From Tissierellia bacterium (GTDB lineage: Bacteria > Bacillota_A > Clostridia > Tissierellales > Peptoniphilaceae): a DNA stretch of 12,340 bases. The translations under genes were made by a program, and so were the position numbers. The stretch spans positions 1-12,340 of the forward strand of contig JAAZCH010000360.1 in NCBI GenBank assembly GCA_012513395.1, in the 5' to 3' direction. This document shows, one piece after another, positions 2,086-12,335 of this stretch (positions are counted from its first letter, which is position 1; each line of letters begins with the position of its first letter). The notes beneath the pieces are model-generated. The model searched no databases, was not told the DNA's origin, and was given only the letters and a program-made list of their open reading frames with translations.

Positions 2086-2535
2086 TTATTTTCTTAAATA
2101 TTCATCTGCACTTGGAATATTTTCGTTTATTCTTCCCATCATTTTTGTAGTAATCTCGATTTCTTCTGGAGACAAATTGTCCATTATTTCATCTAGTATT
2201 GCTACAACATTTTCATTTTTAAGTTCTAAAAATCCGTAATATTTGTCGGTTACATTTAGATAAAAAATTCTCTTATCTTCTTGAGATTGAGTTTTTGTTA
2301 TATAACCTTTTTCTTCTAGATTAGAAATCTTATAAGCTGCATTAGGTTGCGAAATTTTCATAAAAGTTGCAACATCTCTAACTGTAGCTTGGTTCAATCC
2401 ATTAATTACTTCTAGGCAGAAGGACTCAGATACAGTCAGAGCATCTTCAGCTTCTCCAAAGTTTAAATTTCTATAAAAATCTAATCTAAATCTATTATAG
2501 ATTTTTAAAAATTCATTTATCATATCTTCTTTCAA
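2086..2535 (-). CDS. MarR-family transcriptional regulator, FabT-like
   Basis: A 149-residue MarR-type winged-helix protein. The N-terminal helix serves dimerisation, the helix-turn-helix spans about residues 51-78 (ATVRDVATFMKISQPNAAYK), and the wing carries the conserved DKRIFYL (87-93). C-terminal helices complete the dimer interface. As the last gene of a complete FASII operon it most likely controls fatty acid synthesis, as FabT does in streptococci, where long acyl-ACP is the corepressor. That role is inferred from context and fold, not from a specific FabT signature. The start is TTG at 2535-2533: AAGGAG lies 8 bases upstream, while the next ATG (codon 5) would be 20 bases away. It begins 12 bases after fabZ. 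Its operator, presumably before accB, is outside the window. Confidence 0.88.
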   Translation of the reverse strand: MKEDMINEFLKIYNRFRLDFYRNLNFGEAEDALTVSESFCLEVINGLNQATVRDVATFMKISQPNAAYKISNLEEKGYITKTQSQEDKRIFYLNVTDKYYGFLELKNENVVAILDEIMDNLSPEEIEITTKMMGRINENIPSADEYLRK

Positions 2536-2543
2536 AGCGTACT

Positions 2544-2549
2544 CTCCTT
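2544..2549 (-). promoter_or_regulatory. Ribosome site that selects the TTG start of the MarR gene
   Basis: AAGGAG overlaps the fabZ stop codon (TAA at 2550-2548) and lies 8 bases before TTG at 2535. It is too far (20 bases) from the in-frame ATG at 2523, so TTG is the likelier initiation codon. Confidence 0.7.
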
Positions 2550-2970
2550 ATTTAATTGCGAAGGTTAACTCTGCAGTTGCAGCTACTTCGTCTTCAACAT
2601 ATGCTGTGGCTATTCCTATTCCAATGGGACCTTTAATCCTAGTGAGTTCACATTCTAGTCTTAATGTATCTCCCGGTATTACTTGTCTTCTAAATTTCGC
2701 ATTTTTTATTCCAGCAAATAAGGCAATTTTTCCTTTGAATTTCTCTTCAGATAAAAGCGCTACTGCTCCTACTTGAGCTAGAGCTTCTATTATTAAAACT
2801 CCGGGCATCACATGATAATCAGGAAAATGTCCTTGGAAAAACGGTTCATTTGCAGTAACTCCTTTAAGACCTACAGCCCTTTTACCCACTTCTAGCTCTA
2901 CTATTTTATCCACCAAAAGCATGGGATATCTATGAGGAATAATTTGTTGTATCTCGTTGGAGTTAAGCAT
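2548..2970 (-). CDS. fabZ: 3-hydroxyacyl-ACP dehydratase FabZ
   Basis: A hot-dog-fold dehydratase of 140 residues, the usual FabZ length. It removes water from 3-hydroxyacyl-ACP in the elongation cycle. The family motifs are clear: [12 protein letters not shown] (12-23), catalytic H48 in GHFP, and catalytic E62 in [11 protein letters not shown] (56-66). I place the start at the ATG at 2970-2968. GAGGTG lies 5 bases upstream, and this gives the canonical N-terminus [17 protein letters not shown] longer frame would need a TTG at 3012 deep inside fabF with a poor ribosome site. With this start the gene overlaps fabF by 8 bases (ATGCTTAA). As the only dehydratase here and of FabZ rather than FabA type, it is not expected to isomerise to cis-3 products. 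Confidence 0.95.
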
Positions 2971-4207
2971 CTTCCCACCTCTTAAACAGTAATGAAGCGT
3001 TATGTCCTCCAAAACCTAGAGAGTTACTCATTACGTATTCTAATTCTTTTTCTATAGGTTCATTAGGTACAATATTCAAATCGCAATCTGAATCAGGAAC
3101 TTTGTAATTCAAAGTTGCTGGTACTATGCCTTTATTTAAAGCAATCAATGAAATTATAGCCTCTAGAGCTCCAGAAGCTCCTAATAAGTGCCCCGTCATG
3201 GATTTAGTAGAACTTATATATAAATCCTTTGCATGATCTTTGAAAACTGTTTTGACGGCATTAGTCTCTATGGCGTCGTTTAGTTTTGTACTAGTTCCGT
3301 GGGCATTTATATAGTCTATTTTTTCGGGATCAATATTAGCTTCTTTAATAGCGTCACTAATTGCAATAGCTGCATACTTCCCGTCTTCATGTGGTGCAGT
3401 TATATGAAATGCATCAGATGTAGCTCCGTAACCTACAATTTCTCCATAGATTCTAGCTCCTCTGTTCTTTGCATGTTCCAGTTCTTCTAAAACTAAAATA
3501 CCTGCTCCTTCTCCCATAACGAATCCATCTCTTTCTGCATCGAAAGGAATAGAAGCTCGGTTAGGATCTGTACTTGTGGATAGTGCTTTCATGGAAACAA
3601 ATCCGCCTACGCCTAGGGGTGTTATACTTGCTTCTGAACCACCTGCAACCATTAAATCTGAATATCCGTCTTTTATACTTCTAAATGCCTGTCCTATAGA
3701 ATCACTTCCTGCTGCACAAGCTGTGACTGTGGCATAGTTTTGTCCATTTAATCCTAGGTGGATTCCTATTTGGGCTGATGTCATATTGATTATGCTCATG
3801 GGTATGAAAAATGGAGAAATCTTATTAAATCCTTTTTCTATACCTTTTGAATGCTCAATTTCTATGGTTTCTATTCCGCCAATTCCACTTCCCACTATAA
3901 CTCCACATCTGGTATCTCCTGCCAACTGACCTAATTCCAACCCGGAATCTTCAAAGGCAATTTGAGATGCGTAAACTCCAAATTGAGTTACCCTATCCAT
4001 CCTTCTCGCACTTTTTCTATCGATGATTTTTGTAGGATCAAAATCTTTCACTTCACCTGCCAATTTCGCATCGAAACCAGTAGTGTCAAAAGCTTCAATA
4101 GGTCCAATGGCACATTTTTTTTCTATAATGCTGTTATAAATTTCATCAAAAGTATTCCCTATAGAAGTAACAGCTCCAATTCCAGTAATTACAACTCTTC
4201 TACTCAT
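2963..4207 (-). CDS. fabF: 3-oxoacyl-ACP synthase II FabF
   Basis: A 414-residue condensing enzyme, the same length class as E. coli FabF. It condenses malonyl-ACP with acyl-ACP in each elongation round. The Cys-His-His triad is visible: C164 in TACAAGS, H303 in NAHGTST and H340 in [11 protein letters not shown]. The C-terminal glycine-rich [11 protein letters not shown] (396-406) is also present. The N-terminus [17 protein letters not shown] is typical. Its ATG overlaps the fabG stop by one base (TAATG), and a GGAGG ribosome site lies 12 bases upstream, a slightly long spacing that fits coupled reinitiation. It is the only elongating KAS in the window, so it must serve saturated chains and, if made here, unsaturated chains. 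Confidence 0.97.
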
Positions 4208-4947
4208 TAGAAATTCATTCCTCCATCCACACTTATTACTTGCCCTGTAATATAATTTGCTTCGTCACTTGCTAAGAAAGCTACCAAGTTCGCCACATCT
4301 TCAGGTGAACCCAATCTCTTTAAAGCTATTGCTTCTTCATATTTTTTGATAATATCTTCAGGTAATTTGTCAGTCATATCAGATTTAATAAATCCTGGAG
4401 CAACTGCATTTACGCATACTCCTCTAGAGCCCAATTCCTTCGCTAAAGATTTTGTCATTCCTATCATTCCAGCTTTGGAAGCAGCGTAGTTAATTTGACC
4501 TGCGTTTCCAGTAATCCCCACGATACTGGAAATATTTACAATCTTACCGTAACGATTTTTTGACATATGCTTTGCCAATACTTTCATCATCATAAAAGCA
4601 GATTTTAAATTGGCATCTATTACATCATCAAAGTCTTCTTCTGTCATTCTTAGAATTAGTTTATCTCTCGTGATTCCTGCATTATTTACTAGAACTTCAA
4701 TTTTTCCAAATTGAGAAACTGCTTCCTCAAAAATTCTTTCGCAGTCTTCCATCTTGGATACATCTCCTTGAACTAGTAATACATCTACCCCTAGATTCTC
4801 TAATTCTTCTTTTACAATTTTAGCTGCACTTTCGTCAGATCTATAGTTAAGGGCAATATTAAATCCTTCTTGGGCAAGCTTTTTTGCAATTTCTTTTCCA
4901 ATTCCTCTGCCAGCTCCTGTAACAAGAGCTGTTTTTCTCTCAATCAT
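4207..4947 (-). CDS. fabG: 3-oxoacyl-ACP reductase FabG
   Basis: A 246-residue short-chain dehydrogenase that reduces 3-oxoacyl-ACP with NADPH. The Rossmann motif TGAGRGIG is at 10-17, NNAG at 88-91, and the catalytic residues are N113, S141 (in NISSIVG), Y154 and K158 (in NYAASKAG). The C-terminus VDGGMNF is the FabG signature. Placement between fabD and fabF makes the assignment secure among the many SDR paralogues. The ATG lies inside the end of fabD with an 8-base overlap (ATGATTGA), and AGAGGTG lies directly upstream. Confidence 0.97.
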   Translation of the reverse strand: MIERKTALVTGAGRGIGKEIAKKLAQEGFNIALNYRSDESAAKIVKEELENLGVDVLLVQGDVSKMEDCERIFEEAVSQFGKIEVLVNNAGITRDKLILRMTEEDFDDVIDANLKSAFMMMKVLAKHMSKNRYGKIVNISSIVGITGNAGQINYAASKAGMIGMTKSLAKELGSRGVCVNAVAPGFIKSDMTDKLPEDIIKKYEEAIALKRLGSPEDVANLVAFLASDEANYITGQVISVDGGMNF

Positions 4948-5860
4948 TTTTCACCTCTTTTACAAAGCATTCGTAATTTTCAATTGAGTCGATTACATAA
5001 ACATTTGCTTTTCTATCTATCTTTCGAATAAATCCTCGTAGTACCCCACCAAAACCTACTTCTACAAAGGTGTCTACTCCTCTTTCAATCAAAAACTCTA
5101 TACACTCTTGAAAACGAACTGTATGGGAAACTTGCTTAGCCATTATTTCTTTAATGTCCTCGTCATCCTCTCTAGGTCTTCCAATAAAATTATAAGGAAT
5201 TTCTACGTTTTCATTTTTAAATTCGTATTTATCGAATAGCTTTGATAATTCTTCTTCTACAGGAATCATATAAGTGGTATGAAATGGACCTGACGTATTC
5301 AGCTCTACTAACCGTCTAGCCTGGTCTTCTATGGAAATCTTTAATCTGTTTAAAGCTTCAATATCTCCAGAGACTACAATCTGTCCTGGACAATTTAGAT
5401 TCGAAATTTCCACTCTTGATTCACCATCTGATACTTCTTGACAGTATTTTTCAAGTACGTCTGCATCCATTCCCAACACTGCAATCATTCCAGAATTTAT
5501 CTCAGCACCTACTTCTGCCATGAGTTTTCCTCTGATTTTTGCAATCTCTATGGCTTCCTCAGAGGTTATTATTTCCGAGTGAGCCAAGGCTGCATATTCG
5601 CCTATGCTAAGACCCGCCGTGTAATCAAACACTATGCCATCTTCCTTAAACATTTCGCTTATCATGGTTTGGTAAGCTATCATGGCAGGTTGAGTGTTTT
5701 CTGTTTTGGATATAGTCTCCATATCAGATTCAAGGATAATATTTTTTAAATCTTCATCCAGTTTGTCATAATAATCTTTTGCAAAAGAGTCACTAAGGTA
5801 AAAATCTTCACCCATTTTCTCTTGTTGGCTACCTTGGCCAGCAAATAATATAGCTTTCAT
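4940..5860 (-). CDS. fabD: Malonyl-CoA:ACP transacylase FabD
   Basis: A 306-residue acyltransferase that moves malonyl from CoA to ACP to supply FabH and FabF. The N-terminal motif AGQGSQ (7-12), nucleophile S85 in GLSIGEYAAL, R110 in the RGKLM segment and H194 in GPFHT form the expected active site. The usual GHSLG elbow reads GLSIG here. Leucine at that position is also known in other Gram-positive FabD proteins, so it does not suggest inactivity. I start at the ATG at 5860-5858, 8 bases after AAAGGAG. A TTG one codon earlier is only 5 bases from it. The ATG overlaps the stop of the upstream flavoprotein gene (TGATG). It overlaps fabG by 8 bases at its 3' end. Confidence 0.95.
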   Translation of the reverse strand: MKAILFAGQGSQQEKMGEDFYLSDSFAKDYYDKLDEDLKNIILESDMETISKTENTQPAMIAYQTMISEMFKEDGIVFDYTAGLSIGEYAALAHSEIITSEEAIEIAKIRGKLMAEVGAEINSGMIAVLGMDADVLEKYCQEVSDGESRVEISNLNCPGQIVVSGDIEALNRLKISIEDQARRLVELNTSGPFHTTYMIPVEEELSKLFDKYEFKNENVEIPYNFIGRPREDDEDIKEIMAKQVSHTVRFQECIEFLIERGVDTFVEVGFGGVLRGFIRKIDRKANVYVIDSIENYECFVKEVKND

Positions 5861-6906
5861 CAAGTCAGCTCCTTTGTCAAATCTTCAATTACTTCCTTTA
5901 CTGATTGTAGTTTTGTTATTTTTCCAACATTTATTCCTGAGAATACCAATCCTTCTTCTAGATTTCCAGTTACAGAATTTATTAATGCCGTACTGATACA
6001 GTATTTTGTAGTTCCTGGATCACAAGGCACCAAACAGTTTTGGCAACTCTTAGGTTTAATTCTTCCTTCTCTTTCTACTCTTTCAAGCAGTGGAGTATTT
6101 ATCGCCCTGCCTGGCATCCCTACTGGACTGTATATTACGCGTAGGTCTTCAGCAGTGGCATTGACAACGTGATTTTTAAATATATCTGATGCGTCACATT
6201 CGTGAGTTGCAATAAATCTAGTTCCCAGTTGCACTCCATCTGCTCCAAGGTCTAGAAATTCTTTTACATCAGCTCCGTCAAAAATACCTCCTGCTGCAAT
6301 CACAGGAAATTCGTAACCCTTTTCGTCTCTGTATTCCAAAATTTCCTTTAGATTTTCTCTTATCTTATCTTCACCTTCAATTTCTTCAAGGGAATATCCC
6401 AAATGCCCTCCTGCTTTAACTCCTTCAAGGACTACGAAGTCAGGAAGTCTATCAAATTTCTTTTTCCAAGTACGAACTATTACATCCAGTGCCCTTTTGG
6501 AAGATACAATTGGAGCAATCAATACATCTGTGCCTGCAACTATTTCAGGTAGTTTCAATGGAAGTCCAGCGCCGACCACCAAAGCGTCTGCACCATTTTC
6601 TGAAGCGAATCTGGCAAGTTCAGTAAATTCTGTGATGGCTTGCATTATATTAACTGCAATCATGCCTCTTCCTTTTGAAATTTCTTTGGCTTTTGTTATT
6701 TCTTTTTTCAAAGCTCTCATATTAGCTTCTACGTTATTTTTTTTATAATCTGGCTCTCTAAACCCTATGCCCACTGAAGAAATTGTGCCCACGCCACCTT
6801 CTAAGGCGACATGACCCGCTAAATTTCCCAAGGACACTCCCACGCCCATACCACCTTGGACTATGGGTACATCCATGATAAATTTTCCGATTTTTAAAGG
6901 TTTCAT
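5860..6906 (-). CDS. Nitronate monooxygenase/FabK-superfamily flavoprotein with Cys cluster, FabX/UfaA-like
   Basis: A 348-residue TIM-barrel FMN protein, 40 residues longer than the FabK encoded next to it. Flavin and active-site features are VQGGMGVG (16-23), H168 in KAGGHLG, AAGGIFDG (204-211) and GTRFIATHE (228-236). It differs from FabK in the N-terminal KPLKIGK segment and in a C-terminal cysteine cluster C288-X2-C291-X3-C295-X7-C303, followed by a GLVFSG segment (319-324). Such a cluster in this superfamily fits the [4Fe-4S] site of Helicobacter FabX, which dehydrogenates and isomerises acyl-ACP to start unsaturated fatty acids. Neisseria UfaA is a related anaerobic factor. Placed between fabK and fabD, overlapping both (ATGA and TGATG), it very likely acts on ACP-bound acyl chains. 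A second enoyl reductase or a true nitronate monooxygenase remain alternatives. Confidence 0.8.
   Translation of the reverse strand: MKPLKIGKFIMDVPIVQGGMGVGVSLGNLAGHVALEGGVGTISSVGIGFREPDYKKNNVEANMRALKKEITKAKEISKGRGMIAVNIMQAITEFTELARFASENGADALVVGAGLPLKLPEIVAGTDVLIAPIVSSKRALDVIVRTWKKKFDRLPDFVVLEGVKAGGHLGYSLEEIEGEDKIRENLKEILEYRDEKGYEFPVIAAGGIFDGADVKEFLDLGADGVQLGTRFIATHECDASDIFKNHVVNATAEDLRVIYSPVGMPGRAINTPLLERVEREGRIKPKSCQNCLVPCDPGTTKYCISTALINSVTGNLEEGLVFSGINVGKITKLQSVKEVIEDLTKELT
5869..5875 (-). promoter_or_regulatory. Ribosome site that sets the fabD start at ATG 5860
   Basis: AAAGGAG lies 8 bases before ATG 5860 and 5 bases before the in-frame TTG at 5863. The spacing and the ATG both favour 5860, giving MKAILFAGQGSQ. 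Confidence 0.65.
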
Positions 6907-7829
6907 TTACACATTCTCTCTTTCACTTTGAGATAATCTTCGTATAATTCCTCAATTATATCTTTTACAGGTTTCTTTTCATTAATTTGAGGAGATACTA
7001 ATCCCGCCATCAATGAACCTTGTTCCATATCTCCTTCTTGAACAGCTTTTCTTAAAGCACCCATAGTGAAAACTTCCAGCTGCTCCAAATCCCAACCTTC
7101 TTTTTCTTTATTGATGTATTCATTAGTCATGGAGTTTCTTATTACTCTGGTAGGAACGCCTCTGATTCTTCCGATTACAGTAATATGTGTGTCCTTAGCT
7201 TTAATAATTCTGTCCTTATAATTGTCATGAATCGGACATTCATCTGCAACCAGGAGCATAGTTCCCACTTGAACGCCTATTGCGCCAAGGACTTCAGCTG
7301 CATACATCTGTCTACCATTTGCAATTCCACCTGCAGCAATTACAGGAATATTAACCCTGTCTTTCACTTGGGGAATCAAAGTCATAGTCGTCATCTCGCC
7401 AACATGACCTCCAGCTTCAGTACCTTCTGCTATTACAGCATCTACGCCTAATCTCTCCATTTTTAACGCCATGGTCGGATTTGCAATTACAGGAATTACC
7501 ACTGATCCTTTATTTTTCCACATGCTTATATATCTTCCAGGATTACCTGCTCCAGTCGTTACTACAGGCACTCTCATTTCTTCAATAATTTCAGCCATTT
7601 CTTGGACATGATAATTCATAAGCATTAAATTTACGCCAAAGGGCTTGTCAGTTAATGTCCTAATCTTTTCAATTTCTGCCCTCAATCCCTCTGGCTTTAA
7701 CCCACCACTTGCAATTAGTCCTAATCCACCAGCATTTGATACCGCAGCTGCAAACTCAGCAGTAGCAATATTAGCCATCCCACCTTGGATTATAGGATAT
7801 TTCACGTCAATAATATCTCTTAAGTCCAT
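6903..7829 (-). CDS. fabK: Enoyl-ACP reductase II FabK
   Basis: A 308-residue FMN-dependent enoyl-ACP reductase, the triclosan-insensitive replacement for FabI, which completes each elongation cycle using NAD(P)H. It matches streptococcal FabK along its length: YPIIQGGMANIA (11-22), the TDKPFGVNLML stretch (60-70), TTGAGNP (91-97), the EAGGHVG motif with catalytic H142, and AAGGIANG (165-172) for flavin phosphate. It lacks the C-terminal cysteine cluster of the neighbouring paralogue. The ATG is preceded by AGGTGA and begins 7 bases after the fabH stop. Its end overlaps the next gene by four bases (ATGA). No fabI, fabL or fabV is visible in the window. Confidence 0.95.
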   Translation of the reverse strand: MDLRDIIDVKYPIIQGGMANIATAEFAAAVSNAGGLGLIASGGLKPEGLRAEIEKIRTLTDKPFGVNLMLMNYHVQEMAEIIEEMRVPVVTTGAGNPGRYISMWKNKGSVVIPVIANPTMALKMERLGVDAVIAEGTEAGGHVGEMTTMTLIPQVKDRVNIPVIAAGGIANGRQMYAAEVLGAIGVQVGTMLLVADECPIHDNYKDRIIKAKDTHITVIGRIRGVPTRVIRNSMTNEYINKEKEGWDLEQLEVFTMGALRKAVQEGDMEQGSLMAGLVSPQINEKKPVKDIIEELYEDYLKVKERMCK

Positions 7830-7836
7830 TTTTCAC

Positions 7837-8763
7837 CTACCATGTAATTACAGTTGATGCCCAACTCAAGCCTCCTCCGAAGCCTGAAAGGACAATTTTC
7901 ATATTCTCCCTAAAATAACCCTTTTCATTCATCTCATCTAAAGCAATTGGAATGCTAGCAGCAGAAGTATTGCCGTAATTTTGCAAATTCATATAGAATT
8001 TTTCCTCATCCAATTTCAATTTTTTTCTAACATGCTCAATAATTCTTTTGTTTGCTTGATGAAATATATAATAATCTATATCTTCATATTCTAAATTAGC
8101 TTTTTCCAATACTTTGGAAACGGATTCCACCATAATATTAGTAGCAAATCTAAATACTGCTTTTCCTTCCATTCTCAAAGCCGAATCTCGTTTGGTGTCG
8201 GTAGTTCTTCCCAGCGCATGCAAAGATTCGAAATCTCCACTAGATCCGATGTCAAAAAATGATTCCTCTTCATTTTTCTCTACCAATACAGCACCTGCTC
8301 CATCTCCAAACAGAATTGAAGTTGTGCGATCTTCCATATCCAAAACTTTTGAAATGGTTTCTGCCCCTACCAATACCCCTTTTCTACCTGATTCCAAAAG
8401 GGAATCCATTACTTTTAATCCTGCGACAAATCCGCTACAAGCCATATTAAAATCAAAAGCTATGCTGTCATTTTTAATATTAAGCTCCTTTTGAATCATA
8501 GAAGCTATCGAAGGAGTTATCAAATCCGGTGTAAATGTAGCTACTAAAACTACATCCACATTGGATAAATCTTCACCTCTAAATTTTTCTACAGCTTTTA
8601 ATGCTAAATCTGAAGTGTCTTCCCCTTCTACAAATCGCCTAGCTTCTATTCCTGTTCTGCTTTGAATCCATTCGTCACTGGTATCCATAATTTTTTCAAA
8701 GTCTTTATTTGTAACTATTTTTGGAGGAACATATTTACTTGTTTTTATAATTTTTAAACCCAT
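7837..8763 (-). CDS. fabH: 3-oxoacyl-ACP synthase III FabH
   Basis: A 308-residue initiating condensing enzyme that joins an acyl-CoA primer to malonyl-ACP. The Cys-His-Asn triad is present: C109 in NMACSGF, H235 in FHQANKR and N265 in NYGNTSAAS. The DEWIQSRTGIEAR segment (30-42) and C-terminal GFGGGLSWAS (294-303) are typical FabH. Whether it prefers acetyl-CoA or branched primers cannot be judged by eye. The ATG overlaps the accA stop by one base (TAATG). It forms the link between the acc block and the fab block. acpP, which often follows fabH in Gram-positive clusters, is absent: only 7 bases separate it from fabK. Confidence 0.96.
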   Translation of the reverse strand: MGLKIIKTSKYVPPKIVTNKDFEKIMDTSDEWIQSRTGIEARRFVEGEDTSDLALKAVEKFRGEDLSNVDVVLVATFTPDLITPSIASMIQKELNIKNDSIAFDFNMACSGFVAGLKVMDSLLESGRKGVLVGAETISKVLDMEDRTTSILFGDGAGAVLVEKNEEESFFDIGSSGDFESLHALGRTTDTKRDSALRMEGKAVFRFATNIMVESVSKVLEKANLEYEDIDYYIFHQANKRIIEHVRKKLKLDEEKFYMNLQNYGNTSAASIPIALDEMNEKGYFRENMKIVLSGFGGGLSWASTVITW

Positions 8764-9671
8764 TACCTACCTATCCTCCTGAATTTTTCTACTCTATCGC
8801 TTTGTAATTTATTTTTTGAAATCTTTTCTAGGCTTTTTAATTCCTCTTCTAAAGCTTCGCCTAGTCTAGTCATATTTATTGCAAAATCTTCTTTTAAAAA
8901 CGAAACATCTTCTTCTACTACTCTATCTACTACTTTTAAATCCAACAAATCCTTCGCTGTAAGTTTCATTATCTTACTAGCTTCTCTAGCCCTTGAAGCA
9001 TCCTTCCAAATTATGGAAGAAAAACCTTCTGGAGATAAAATAGAATATACTGAATTTTCAAATAAAATAACTTTGTTTCCCACACCTAAAGCAAGAGCGC
9101 CCCCTGAGCCACCTTCCCCAGTGACTACAGAAATTATTGGAACTTTTAGTCCAAAGGAGTTCATTATAGACTGAGCTATAGCTTCTCCCTGGCCTCTTTC
9201 TTCAGCTCCCAATCCAGGATATGCTCCAGATGTATCGATAAATGTTAAAATCGGTCTGCCAAATTTATTAGCTTGGTTCATAAGCCTTTGGGCTTTTCGA
9301 TATCCTTCAGGATTGGGCATACCGAAATTCGTCTTTAGATTTTCTTCGATATTTTTTCCCTTTTTTGTGCCTAAAAATGTAACAGGACGACCGTTAAATT
9401 TTCCGATTCCTCCGATTAGGCAATAATCTTCGCCAAATAATCTATCTCCAGCTAGATAAACTTTTTCCCTTATTAAATAGTCTATAAATTCATCTGCCTT
9501 AGGTCTTTCCTTGTGCCTTGCCAAATACACTCTATCAAAAGGTTCAAGTTCAGATTTTGCTAATTTGCGAAGATCTTCCATCTCCCTTTTTATTTTTGCT
9601 CTTTCTCCATTGGGAGCTGCTTTATATTTATTTGCCAAGACTAAATATTCTTGTTCTCTTTTATCAATCAT
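8763..9671 (-). CDS. accA: Acetyl-CoA carboxylase carboxyltransferase subunit alpha
   Basis: A 302-residue crotonase-fold subunit that pairs with AccD to transfer CO2 from carboxybiotin to acetyl-CoA, giving malonyl-CoA. Visible motifs are DTSGAYPG (146-153), GEGGSGGALALG (185-196), SPEG (213-216) and IWKD (221-224). The N-terminal helical region (1-45) is normal for AccA. It is slightly shorter than E. coli AccA (319). The start ATG follows AGGGG at about 5 bases and lies 9 bases after the accD stop. Its stop overlaps the fabH start. AccA and AccD are adjacent, which suits their 1:1 heterotetramer assembly. Confidence 0.96.
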   Translation of the reverse strand: MIDKREQEYLVLANKYKAAPNGERAKIKREMEDLRKLAKSELEPFDRVYLARHKERPKADEFIDYLIREKVYLAGDRLFGEDYCLIGGIGKFNGRPVTFLGTKKGKNIEENLKTNFGMPNPEGYRKAQRLMNQANKFGRPILTFIDTSGAYPGLGAEERGQGEAIAQSIMNSFGLKVPIISVVTGEGGSGGALALGVGNKVILFENSVYSILSPEGFSSIIWKDASRAREASKIMKLTAKDLLDLKVVDRVVEEDVSFLKEDFAINMTRLGEALEEELKSLEKISKNKLQSDRVEKFRRIGR

Positions 9672-9680
9672 ATAAACCCC

Positions 9681-10514
9681 TCAATGTATACTCAATATCC
9701 TGTGGAGATAGGCAACTAGAATTCTTCTTTCCAAAATAATATCTACGAAGCCATGATCCCTTTGAAATTCAGATCTTTGGAATCCCTCAGGAAGTTCTTC
9801 TCCTATGGTCTGTTTTATTACCCTTGGCCCTGCAAATCCTATTAATGCTTTTGGTTCTGCTATTGCAATATCAGCAAGAGATGCGAAACTCGCAGTTACT
9901 CCTCCAGTAGTTGGATTAGTAAAAACATTAATGTATAAAAGTCCAGCCTCTGAATGTTCTCTAACTGCGTTGGAAGTTTTAGCCATTTGCATCAAGGAAA
10001 TAATTCCCTCTTGCATTCTAGCTCCTCCACTAGCAGAAAAAGAAATAACAGGCAATCGCCTTTTCGTTGCAAACTCAAAAGCTTTTGTGATCTCTTCACC
10101 TACATAAGCTCCCATGCTTCCCATTAAAAATCCCTTGTCCAAAACTATAACTACCGAATCTTTGTCTTTTATATTTCCACGAGCACATATGACACCTTCA
10201 TCTGCTCCACTTTTTGCTTTGTTTTCCCTAAGTTTATCTTGATAATCAGGAAATTCCAAAGGATTTTGGTATCTTGGTTTCGAACTGATTATTCTATATC
10301 CTGGTTCCAAAATCATATTTAAACGATCTTGGGAGTTCATATAATTGTGAAATCCGCAATTGGGACACACAAAATGCGTCTCCACCATTTTTTGTCTCAA
10401 GACATCAGTTTTGCAATTTTCACACGTGATATAAAGGTTTTCTCCTCCATCTCCTTCTGTTCTCTTTCTTCTTAACAAAGAGAGGAGAGATTTACGAGTT
10501 TTTAAATTTTCCAA
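9681..10514 (-). CDS. accD: Acetyl-CoA carboxylase carboxyltransferase subunit beta
   Basis: A 277-residue carboxyltransferase subunit with the N-terminal four-cysteine zinc ribbon typical of bacterial AccD: C31-X2-C34 and C50-X2-C53. The crotonase-fold body carries SGGARMQEG (162-170), NPTTGGVTASFA (200-211) and GPRVI (229-233). It partners with AccA. The start codon is TTG at 10514-10512. AGGAGG lies 8 bases upstream, and there is no better in-frame ATG before the zinc ribbon. The gap to accC is 4 bases, so the accD ribosome site lies within the last codons of accC. There are no signs of damage, and the length is typical. Confidence 0.95.
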   Translation of the reverse strand: MENLKTRKSLLSLLRRKRTEGDGGENLYITCENCKTDVLRQKMVETHFVCPNCGFHNYMNSQDRLNMILEPGYRIISSKPRYQNPLEFPDYQDKLRENKAKSGADEGVICARGNIKDKDSVVIVLDKGFLMGSMGAYVGEEITKAFEFATKRRLPVISFSASGGARMQEGIISLMQMAKTSNAVREHSEAGLLYINVFTNPTTGGVTASFASLADIAIAEPKALIGFAGPRVIKQTIGEELPEGFQRSEFQRDHGFVDIILERRILVAYLHRILSIH

Positions 10515-10518
10515 TTAC

Positions 10519-11892
10519 TTATCCTCCTATCACTCTTATTTGTTCCAAAAGGTATTCCATTCTTTCTTCTATATAGGCAGTGGAATAATTTCCCCTTAAA
10601 AAAATAGGGTCGTGAAGTATGGCGTATTGAATTCCCAAATTTGTGATAATTCCAGAAATTATCGTCTCTTCAATAGCCCTTCGCATTCTCCTTATAGCTT
10701 CTAATCTAGTCTGCCCGTGAACAATTATCTTCCCAAGCATAGAATCGTAGTATGGAGAAACTTCGCAGTCGCTGAATAAAAACGTATCAAATCTAGTGCT
10801 GAACCCACCAGGTTGAAAAAAGAAATCAATTCTTCCCACATTAGGCCTAAATTCATCCAAGGGGTTTTCTGCATTTACTCTTACTTCTAATGCGTGTCCT
10901 CTTAGTTCTATATCCTCTTGTTTATAAGGAAGTTTCAACCCACTTGCAATCCTAAGCTGCTCTCTGAGTAAATCTATCCCAGTAACCATTTCAGTTACAG
11001 GATGTTCAACTTGAATTCTAGTGTTCATCTCTATAAAATAATAGTTTCCATCTTGGTCTACTATAAATTCTACTGTTCCAGCATTTTCGTAATTACAAGC
11101 CCTAGCTGCCTTTATAGCAACTTGACCCATCTCTTCTCGTAAAGCATCACTTAAAAAAGTAGAGGGTGATTCTTCTATCATTTTTTGATTTTTTCTTTGG
11201 ATAGAACATTCCCTCTCGCCTAAATGTATTACATTGCCGAAACTGTCTGCTAGTATTTGAAATTCAATATGTTTTGGATTTAAAATCAATTTTTCCAAAT
11301 ACACTTCGTCATTTCCAAAAGCTTGCATAGCTTCCGATTTTGCACTATTATATGCATCTTCTAATTTTTCTTTGCTAAAAACAGCTCTCATTCCCCTGCC
11401 GCCACCACCACTTGAGGCTTTGATTAGGACAGGATAGCCGATTTTTTCTGATACTTCCGCAGCTTCTTCAAGGGTATTTATAATTCCCTCTGAACCTGGA
11501 ACTGTAGGTACTCCACTAGCCATCATTAATTCTCTAGCTTTGGATTTTTCTCCCATCAATTCTATAATGTCTCCAGAAGGTCCGACAAATTTCATGCCGT
11601 TTTCTTCCACTATCCTAGCAAAATTAGGATTTTCAGACAAGAATCCATAACCAGGATGTATGCCATCGCAGTTCATTTCTATAGCTGCTGTTAAGATATT
11701 GTCTACATTTAAATAACTCTCTTGGGAGCGAGGACCACCTATACAGATTGCATAGTCTGCCATTAAAACGTGGAGTTGATTTCTATCCACAGTGGAGTAC
11801 ACTGCGACCGTTTCAATCCCCAATTCCCTACAAGATCTGATTATTCTAATAGCAATTTCTCCCCTATTAGCAATCAACACTCTATTTAACAT
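10519..11892 (-). CDS. accC: Acetyl-CoA carboxylase biotin carboxylase subunit
   Basis: A 457-residue ATP-grasp enzyme that carboxylates the biotin on AccB using ATP and bicarbonate. The N-terminal NRVLIANRGEIAIRIIR, the HPGYGFLSEN segment (79-88), the glycine-rich lid SGGGGRGM (161-168), K237 in RKNQK, E275 in AGTVEF, and E288, N290 and R292 in the EMNTRIQVEHP motif are all present. The histidine of the RRHQK motif familiar from E. coli reads asparagine (N235). I take this as family variation because all other catalytic residues are kept. The ATG overlaps the accB stop by one base (TAATG), with GAGGAA upstream. The length is typical of AccC (about 450). Confidence 0.97.
   Translation of the reverse strand: MLNRVLIANRGEIAIRIIRSCRELGIETVAVYSTVDRNQLHVLMADYAICIGGPRSQESYLNVDNILTAAIEMNCDGIHPGYGFLSENPNFARIVEENGMKFVGPSGDIIELMGEKSKARELMMASGVPTVPGSEGIINTLEEAAEVSEKIGYPVLIKASSGGGGRGMRAVFSKEKLEDAYNSAKSEAMQAFGNDEVYLEKLILNPKHIEFQILADSFGNVIHLGERECSIQRKNQKMIEESPSTFLSDALREEMGQVAIKAARACNYENAGTVEFIVDQDGNYYFIEMNTRIQVEHPVTEMVTGIDLLREQLRIASGLKLPYKQEDIELRGHALEVRVNAENPLDEFRPNVGRIDFFFQPGGFSTRFDTFLFSDCEVSPYYDSMLGKIIVHGQTRLEAIRRMRRAIEETIISGIITNLGIQYAILHDPIFLRGNYSTAYIEERMEYLLEQIRVIGG
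10523..10528 (-). promoter_or_regulatory. Ribosome site for the TTG start of accD, inside the accC 3' end
   Basis: AGGAGG is formed largely by the two terminal glycine codons (GGA GGA) of accC just before its TAA stop. It lies 8 bases from TTG 10514, which decides the accD start and makes accC and accD translation physically linked. Confidence 0.75.
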
Positions 11893-12335
11893 TATAGTTC
11901 CTCTATTTCAAATAATTCGTCTTCATAACCTATAAGATCACCGTTTATGGCCAAAACTTTTTTAACAGTTCCGGAAACAGGACTCTTTATTTCATTTAAC
12001 ATTTTCATAGCTTCAAGTATGCACAGTACATCTCCAGCAGAAACCTTTTGTCCAACTTCCACAAAGGGCTTTGCACCAGGAGATGGCGCAGTATAAAACG
12101 TTCCCACTAAGGGAGCTTTTACTATATATCCTGAAGGTTCTAAGGCAACAGGAACTTCTTCTATTTTTGGAGTCACATCAGCTTGAACTGTATTTAAAGA
12201 ATCAGAAAGGGTGTAAGTCATTTGCCCTCCACCCTTTTCCATTGCTATTCTTAAATTTTCATCTTCAACTTCTAATTTAGAAATTTTGCTTTCTTCAAAT
12301 AGTTCAAGGATAGCTTTGATTTTATCTAAATCCAT
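11892..12335 (-). CDS. accB: Biotin carboxyl carrier protein of acetyl-CoA carboxylase
   Basis: A 147-residue BCCP, the first gene of the operon that is in view. The N-terminal helix (1-33) is the usual association region, followed by a flexible linker (about 35-65) and a biotinyl domain (about 68-147). Biotin would be attached to K111 in the EAMKML motif by a biotin ligase not encoded here. The APLVGTFYTAPSPGAKPF segment (74-91) holds the protruding thumb typical of acetyl-CoA carboxylase BCCPs, which separates it from other biotinyl proteins. The start ATG is 5 bases from the window edge, so its ribosome site and the operon promoter cannot be seen. It is complete. Confidence 0.95.
   Translation of the reverse strand: MDLDKIKAILELFEESKISKLEVEDENLRIAMEKGGGQMTYTLSDSLNTVQADVTPKIEEVPVALEPSGYIVKAPLVGTFYTAPSPGAKPFVEVGQKVSAGDVLCILEAMKMLNEIKSPVSGTVKKVLAINGDLIGYEDELFEIEEL

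Follow-up and report, generated by a model that had tools for sequence, protein, structure and literature searches.

Which enzyme puts the cis double bond into unsaturated fatty acids in Clostridia that presumably avoid oxygen? In Clostridium acetobutylicum the single FabZ was reported to lack isomerase activity, and the double bond was ascribed in 2009 to a "novel and unknown enzyme" (PMC2700279). A 12,340-nucleotide stretch of a Tissierellia bacterium (assembly GCA_012513395.1, contig JAAZCH010000360.1; here called the window) raises the same question, since a flavoprotein gene at 5860..6906 on the minus strand lies there within a type II fatty acid synthesis (FAS-II) operon. The host is presumably fermentative and of the Tissierellia type, in a lineage that is presumably oxygen-avoiding. 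Judged by its sequence, the gene is a FabX-type enzyme in a strong FAS-II setting and the best candidate in the operon for oxygen-free synthesis of unsaturated lipids. It probably carries out the unsaturating step of FAS-II.

Membership of the FabX clade

A sequence-only reading had proposed that this gene encodes a FabX/UfaA-like flavoprotein. The open frame was confirmed (348 aa, N-terminus MKPLKIGK), as was the observation as a whole. The nearest relative among the database matches listed is a "Tissierellia bacterium" protein from a metagenome-assembled genome, with 94% identity. Membership of the FabX/UfaA family was borne out by both a tree and structure comparison. A 70-row FabX clade that includes Helicobacter pylori FabX (HpFabX) had support of 100/99, and the alignment and tree that the earlier reading had called for placed the window protein inside a 14-row subclade of it (99/99), apart from FabK and from the Pseudomonas aeruginosa nitronate monooxygenase (NMO) 4q4k. 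This tree was midpoint-rooted, its NMO branches are long, and 4q4k is the sole characterized NMO included. The structure match to FabX is global, covering 343 residues at 38–39% identity.

The classical FabK described beside it (enoyl-acyl carrier protein reductase II; 6903..7829, minus strand, 308 aa) is real: its top PDB relative is Clostridioides difficile FabK (315 bits), and it falls in the FabK clade. The FabX-type protein lies outside that clade and reaches 111.8 bits with TIGR03151, against a cut-off of 453.1 that the window's own FabK also misses (398 bits). A second-FabK identity was rejected on this placement and on the presence of FabX-type rather than FabK-type residues.

In HpFabX, H182 is the catalytic histidine, Ser273 holds it, and C300, C304, C308 and C320 are the [4Fe–4S] ligands (PMC8626469). 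The bound cluster of HpFabX lies about 13 Å from FMN (flavin mononucleotide). We projected the FabX positions of PMC8626469 onto a 106-row alignment (70 FabX-clade, 32 FabK and 4 other rows); a second alignment of 78 sequences joined the window protein to 77 of 120 listed database matches. The equivalent of H182 is H168 (codon at 6403..6405, minus strand), which stands within GGH and is invariant among the 78 sequences. The cluster ligands correspond to C288-X2-C291-X3-C295-X7-C303 (5998..6045, minus strand), with the spacing described earlier and all four cysteines equally invariant. They are present in 70/70 FabX-clade rows and in none of the 4 other rows, and all four columns are free of cysteine in the FabK rows (0/32), in agreement with the claim that FabK lacks this cluster. 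The catalytic histidine occupies every row (70/70 FabX-clade and 32/32 FabK included). The Ser273 position is serine throughout the FabX clade (70/70) and in 0/32 FabK rows, 22 of which have Arg or Lys; the F339 position is Phe in 70/70 versus 1/32, and the I321 position Ile or Val in 70/70 versus 0/32. L325 is conserved in FabX rows, yet it is not telling because 31/32 FabK rows also have Leu there. Among the His, Ser and FMN-contact positions, the window protein is identical to HpFabX at H168, S260, E161, N86, Q226 and T229, and several other contacts differ.

HpFabX docks acyl carrier protein (ACP) through K152, I156, K159 and R164 of its ACP helix (PMC8626469), to which R138, V142, R145 and K150 correspond in a predicted docking helix of the window protein (residues 138–150; 6457..6495, minus strand). 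Position 152 is basic in 70/70 FabX rows versus 2/32 FabK rows; position 159 is basic in 66/70, but also in 24/32 FabK rows; position 164 carries K, R or H in 52/70 and is a gap in FabK. Over the six HpFabX contacts T130, K152, I156, K159, R160 and R164, the window has L117, R138, V142, R145, T146 and K150, so that charge is retained at three.

Cysteine spacing varies within the clade, from CX2CX3CX7C in the window to CX3CX3CX11C in H. pylori and CX2CX3CX4C in a short subgroup, and exact spacing is thus not diagnostic. That subgroup (about 315 aa; L089–L097 and Cetobacterium L046) has no FAS-II match near it, and a search for a characterized name among its members returned generic names only. 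The idea that L089–L097 lack the cluster was rejected, as they carry the compact motif and cysteines at all four columns.

The operon in the window and in relatives

The minus-strand gene order in the window is accB, accC, accD, accA, fabH, fabK, the fabX-type gene, fabD, fabG, fabF, fabZ and a FabT-like MarR gene. The fabK stop and fabX start overlap by four bases (ATGA, 6903..6906, minus strand), and the fabX stop shares one base with a fabD ATG at 5860 (TGATG), which is a better fit for the fabD start than the listed TTG. With such overlapping and abutting junctions, fabK, fabX and fabD are packed as in a single transcription and translation unit. A promoter and terminator scan gave counts level with those of shuffled sequence.

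Does this placement recur? We surveyed 391 clostridial genomes, which came without completeness figures, scoring up to five candidates per genome. Matches at E ≤ 1e-10, FabK included, were found in 215 of them, and strong FabX-like matches (hand-picked, best E ≤ 7e-35) in 93. Sixty loci were then examined together with as much as 9 kb of flanking sequence: 40 in score order, Hornefia L001 being left out, and 20 from further down, five of these chosen for FabK shown close by. FAS-II neighbors, for which the window's proteins and one ACP served as queries (E 1e-8), stood beside fabX in 24/60 loci (17/40 by score and 7/20 of the others), not counting the single accC-type match of L054. Together with the window and Hornefia L001 this gives 26 FAS-II-linked cases, which are not independent in the tree. 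Their arrangements are fabK-fabX-fabD (13), upstream of fabH in the same orientation (8, several of them with an intervening MarR gene), after accA (2), divergent from fabH (1), convergent beyond the cluster (1) and between fabG and fabF (1). Hornefia butyriciproducens has the window's operon. As the fabK-fabX-fabD order recurs in 12 clostridial genomes besides the window, the placement of the window gene is not due to chance; and because positions at the cluster differ, we read the link with FAS-II as functional and not merely as an inherited neighborhood.

At the loci with fabX between fabK and fabD, gaps counted from the first Met of each frame range from −116 to +26 for fabK-fabX (13 loci) and from −4 to +21 for fabX-fabD (11 loci measured). 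The acpP gene is absent from the window, which ends at accB; it is the match lying directly upstream of accB in 11 of the 12 relatives with this order, and in the twelfth (L061) it precedes fabH, no acc gene being matched there. The second common layout, with fabX upstream of fabH, was seen in L050, L051, L056, L057, L058, L076, L105 and L106. Genome G301 carries two full-length FabX-type genes, L052 and L098, of which one is divergent from the FAS-II cluster and the other lies at a separate place.

The remaining operon genes, all on the minus strand, were assigned by family scores. Above cut-off are accB (11892..12335; TIGR00531, 126 bits), accC (10519..11892; NF006367, 680 bits), accA (8763..9671; NF004344, 370 bits), fabH (7837..8763; NF006829, 354 bits), fabG (4207..4947; TIGR01830, 351 bits), fabF (2963..4207; TIGR03150, 604 bits) and fabZ (2548..3012; NF000582, 185 bits; PF07977). 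Slightly below it are accD (9681..10514; TIGR00515, 296 bits against 317), which holds its position in the conserved order, and fabD (4940..5863; TIGR00128, 246 bits against 261). The regulator (2086..2535) belongs to the MarR family (PF01047), and its top NCBIfam match is FabT at 47.5 bits, under a cut-off of 200. Beyond the operon, genes for a Glutaredoxin/GST-N-like protein, a metallophosphoesterase and an EamA-type transporter occupy 276-2023 on the plus strand, directed towards it.

Unsaturation and the fate of the electrons

The sequence-only reading held that the cluster has no fabA, fabM or fabN and that this gene supplies the unsaturated branch. No fabA or fabM frame was recognized in the window, which upholds part of the first claim. 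The sole FabA/FabZ-domain gene there is FabZ by family score, but sequence is reported not to separate FabZ from FabN (PMC2700279), a caveat on the fabN part. Among the 25 genomes with FAS-II-linked FabX, fatty acid desaturase (PF00487) was found in none, nor was acyl-ACP desaturase (PF03405), a family that matched just 1 of 14 control genomes. Exactly one FabA/FabZ domain (PF07977) was present in 23 of the 25, and two in G264 and G244. The crotonase family (PF00378), which would include FabM, was missing from six (G356, G141, G374, G253, G296 and G091); in these, two of which have the window's gene order, the single FabZ is the only enzyme of FabA, FabN, FabM or desaturase kind found. Few recognizable alternatives thus occur in relatives sharing the FAS-II setting, a supported conclusion.

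We propose that the FabX-type flavoprotein would supply the branch point of unsaturated synthesis, cis-3-decenoyl-ACP. Acyl-ACP would dock on the basic helix R138–K150, and its acyl chain would enter a tunnel between FMN and H168 that ends at a putative [4Fe–4S] cluster held by C288, C291, C295 and C303. Of this picture the residues and the predicted fold are in evidence, whereas cofactors, binding and chemistry are inferred. The substrate would be trans-2-decenoyl-ACP delivered by FabZ and contested by the adjacent FabK; H168 and the flavin would shift the double bond to cis-3 without net oxidation, and elongation by FabF would then yield unsaturated chains.

Several observations weigh against this proposal. 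FabX lacks a FAS-II cluster in the searched stretch at 36 of the 60 loci. Crotonase-family genes occur in 19 of the 25 FAS-II-linked genomes, and FabM could be among them. In a comparison set of 25 clostridial genomes, drawn in handle order, that are FabK-positive but have no strong FabX match, one FabZ is present in 24 and none in 1, and 18 have no crotonase match over the cut-off (7 do). FabX is not in simple complementarity with the known enzymes, and the idea that its presence complements a second FabZ/FabN was not supported by these 24/25 genomes. Because FabX-negative clostridia likewise have one FabZ, missing alternatives alone do not show that FabX fills the gap; such genomes have no known unsaturating enzyme, or no unsaturated acids, or some other means. 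A second unsaturating enzyme is possible elsewhere in the source genome, the data being those of this contig. Identity to HpFabX is just 38–39%; of its ACP contacts, T130 and R160 are changed and R164 is replaced by K150, and its tunnel residues F74/Y75 lie in a loop absent from the window protein. Lastly, HpFabX was reported to be a dehydrogenase in vitro, with oxygen as the only acceptor known (PMC8626469). The unsaturated-branch claim is thus partly supported, by clade, cysteine residues, FAS-II setting and the scarcity of alternatives, and tempered by the same gap in FabX-negative clostridia.

How would such an enzyme work without oxygen? HpFabX dehydrogenates decanoyl-ACP, stores an electron on its cluster and passes electrons to oxygen, while its trans-2 to cis-3 isomerization is reported to require no oxygen (PMC8626469). 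Oxidation of decanoyl-ACP in the H. pylori manner, which would require an acceptor, is the less likely course here. Isomerization, having no net oxidation, needs no outside electron acceptor. The earlier statement that an anaerobic version would need another acceptor, as new biochemistry, is weakened, and the point is less new than stated because anaerobe homologues and an "unknown electron acceptor" in Neisseria are already in print (PMC8626469, PMC11091888, PMC11300592).

In the 12 genomes with fabK-fabX-fabD order, menD and mqnC were above cut-off in none (8 and 11, respectively, had weaker matches, which we take to be broad-family matches). Cytochrome bd was also absent from all 12, other oxidases, quinone routes and soluble acceptors not being searched. 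Among the neighbors of FabX in 69 loci no recurrent electron-transfer family was seen, each family being assigned by visual inspection of one member's first 60 residues and with no profile scan; the most recurrent neighbors were FAS-II genes, the MarR gene (the next frame after fabX in 9/69) and ACP, and rarer ones an ABC-type ATPase (7/69) and a glutamate synthase-type flavoprotein (4/69). Since menD and mqnC did not exceed the cut-off and neither cytochrome bd nor a recurrent electron partner was found, we favor redox-neutral isomerization of trans-2-decenoyl-ACP which, given a role in unsaturated synthesis, appears on balance the likelier mode.

The alternative of a true acyl-ACP dehydrogenase with the same role, passing electrons to a small redox protein, a quinone or another enoyl-ACP, is less probable. 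It would agree with the HpFabX reaction on decanoyl-ACP and the part of the cluster in electron storage (PMC8626469), with the conserved His, Cys and most FMN-contact residues of the window protein, and with Neisseria UfaA, described with an unknown acceptor (PMC11300592); in Burkholderiales, where family members often adjoin nar or ubiUV genes, a quinone could serve. The same-arrangement clostridia, with 0/12 for menD or mqnC over cut-off and for cytochrome bd, speak against it, as does the lack of a recurrent redox partner family beside the gene or of a recognized one in the window operon. Enoyl/acyl thioester couples lie far above NAD, which is therefore not a plausible acceptor.

It is improbable that the operon's single FabZ (2548-3012) is a FabN-like dehydratase/isomerase and FabX does other work, for example as an auxiliary enoyl-ACP reductase. 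No sequence signature is reported to separate FabZ from FabN (PMC2700279), FabX-negative clostridia also have one FabZ, and the finding that over-expressed fabX partly relieves FabK inhibition in Fusobacterium nucleatum fits a reductase (PMC11091888). However, the single C. acetobutylicum FabZ was reported to show no isomerase activity in vivo or in vitro (PMC2700279), the neighboring FabK leaves no obvious need for a second reductase, and the window protein retains FabX-type, not FabK-type, residues. The F. nucleatum result suggests that an anaerobe has a working FabX homologue which affects the pool of FabK substrate, and it is compatible with an isomerase as well as with a reversible reductase. 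Finally, that the protein is an NMO or general flavin oxidoreductase, as Pfam PF03060 (named NMO), which it matches, and the public names of related proteins (nitronate monooxygenase or flavin oxidoreductase) would have it, is highly improbable and was rejected, as the tree sets it apart from 4q4k and structure comparison is likewise against it.

Neighbors in other phyla fit an oxygen-independent role of the family, as an association only. In Burkholderiales, respiratory nitrate reductase genes lie within 6 kb of the FabX-type gene in 6/10 loci (L107, L108, L109, L110, L115, L116) and ubiUV, for oxygen-independent ubiquinone synthesis, at 2/10 (L040, whose UbiT/U/V are named by NCBIfam, and L110); 7/10 have nar and/or ubiUV, and L113, L114 and L117 have neither. 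FabX-type genes on cyanobacterial plasmids (L039, L111, L112) have psbA within about 2 kb in 3/3 and heme oxygenase near in 2/3; these may be gene sets for low oxygen, in which an oxygen-free route accompanies desaturases that depend on O2. No nar, ubiUV, psbA or heme oxygenase was seen within 4 kb at the loci of Parabacteroides, F. vincentii and Neisseria gonorrhoeae. Three "plasmid" records, NZ_CP154629 (L002), NZ_CP084075 (L037) and NZ_CP119142 (L038), are 2.1 to 2.6 Mb long and look like whole chromosomes mislabelled. A paper by Isabella and Clark, cited in PMC11300592, carries a title that also agrees with an oxygen-independent role. Tentatively, the FabX family of strict anaerobes could consist of redox-neutral flavin/[4Fe–4S] enoyl-ACP isomerases (or use another enoyl-ACP as acceptor), this being the ancestral, oxygen-independent job and oxygen use in H. 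pylori the exception.

FabX homologues were noted in many, mostly anaerobic, species (PMC8626469, Discussion), and Bacteroidales FabX and UfaA with its unknown acceptor are in print (PMC11300592). The F. nucleatum FabK structure paper makes no mention of FabX (PMC12921513). Among the titles and passages listed from the open-access literature, subscription papers not being covered, none places FabX in clostridial FAS-II operons, while homologues in anaerobes are noted. The window gene does not itself settle the C. acetobutylicum question, but it makes the old question of the clostridial cis double bond testable. If the family is ancestrally redox-neutral, FabX would be the source of that bond in the Clostridia carrying it, a step for which C. 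acetobutylicum had no known enzyme in 2009; in denitrifiers and cyanobacteria, whose copies often lie near nar, ubiUV or psbA, it would act as a back-up under anaerobic conditions. The window gene would also be relevant to drugs aimed at FabK, as F. nucleatum can partly escape FabK inhibition by raising fabX expression (PMC11091888). A FabX within a FAS-II operon, in lineages where no cytochrome bd, and no menD or mqnC over cut-off, was found (12 genomes), offers a clean system in which to ask where FabX electrons go.

Comparison with known systems

FabK shares with the window protein the superfamily, the TIM barrel and the histidine, but has no cysteine at the four columns, forms a separate clade and shows 24–30% structure-based identity. 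FabM, FabA and FabN would act at the same pathway step, leading to cis-3-decenoyl-ACP, with folds unrelated to FabX and no flavin. An enzyme of Clostridium aminobutyricum is of a different family and substrate and serves as an analogy only. It combines flavin and [4Fe–4S] and moves the C2/C3 double bond of an acyl thioester, going by titles cited in PMC7078158.

Closer parallels lie within the FabX clade. F. nucleatum is likewise an anaerobe with FabK and FabX, and its C4N14_08920 keeps the cysteines and is reported to be 50.8% identical to HpFabX (PMC11091888); around the F. vincentii relative (L037), no FAS-II gene matched within 4 kb. N. gonorrhoeae UfaA (NGO1024), reportedly needed for anaerobic synthesis of unsaturated fatty acids (cited in PMC11300592), has its relative in L038, which in our reading is UfaA itself. 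L038 shares the clade, the four cysteines and the histidine, but it is 37% identical to the window protein, sits on a long branch with C. necator and has no match to the window's other FAS-II proteins within 4 kb. HpFabX (PDB 7e1q, 9lt5) has in common with the window protein the fold over 343 residues, the catalytic His and its Ser partner, four Cys ligands, most FMN contacts, the KPLKIGK start and a predicted basic docking helix. At 38–39% identity, the window protein differs from it in cysteine spacing (CX2CX3CX7C versus CX3CX3CX11C), in a shorter loop after residue 50, and in its place inside a FAS-II operon beside FabK, in a presumably fermentative lineage.
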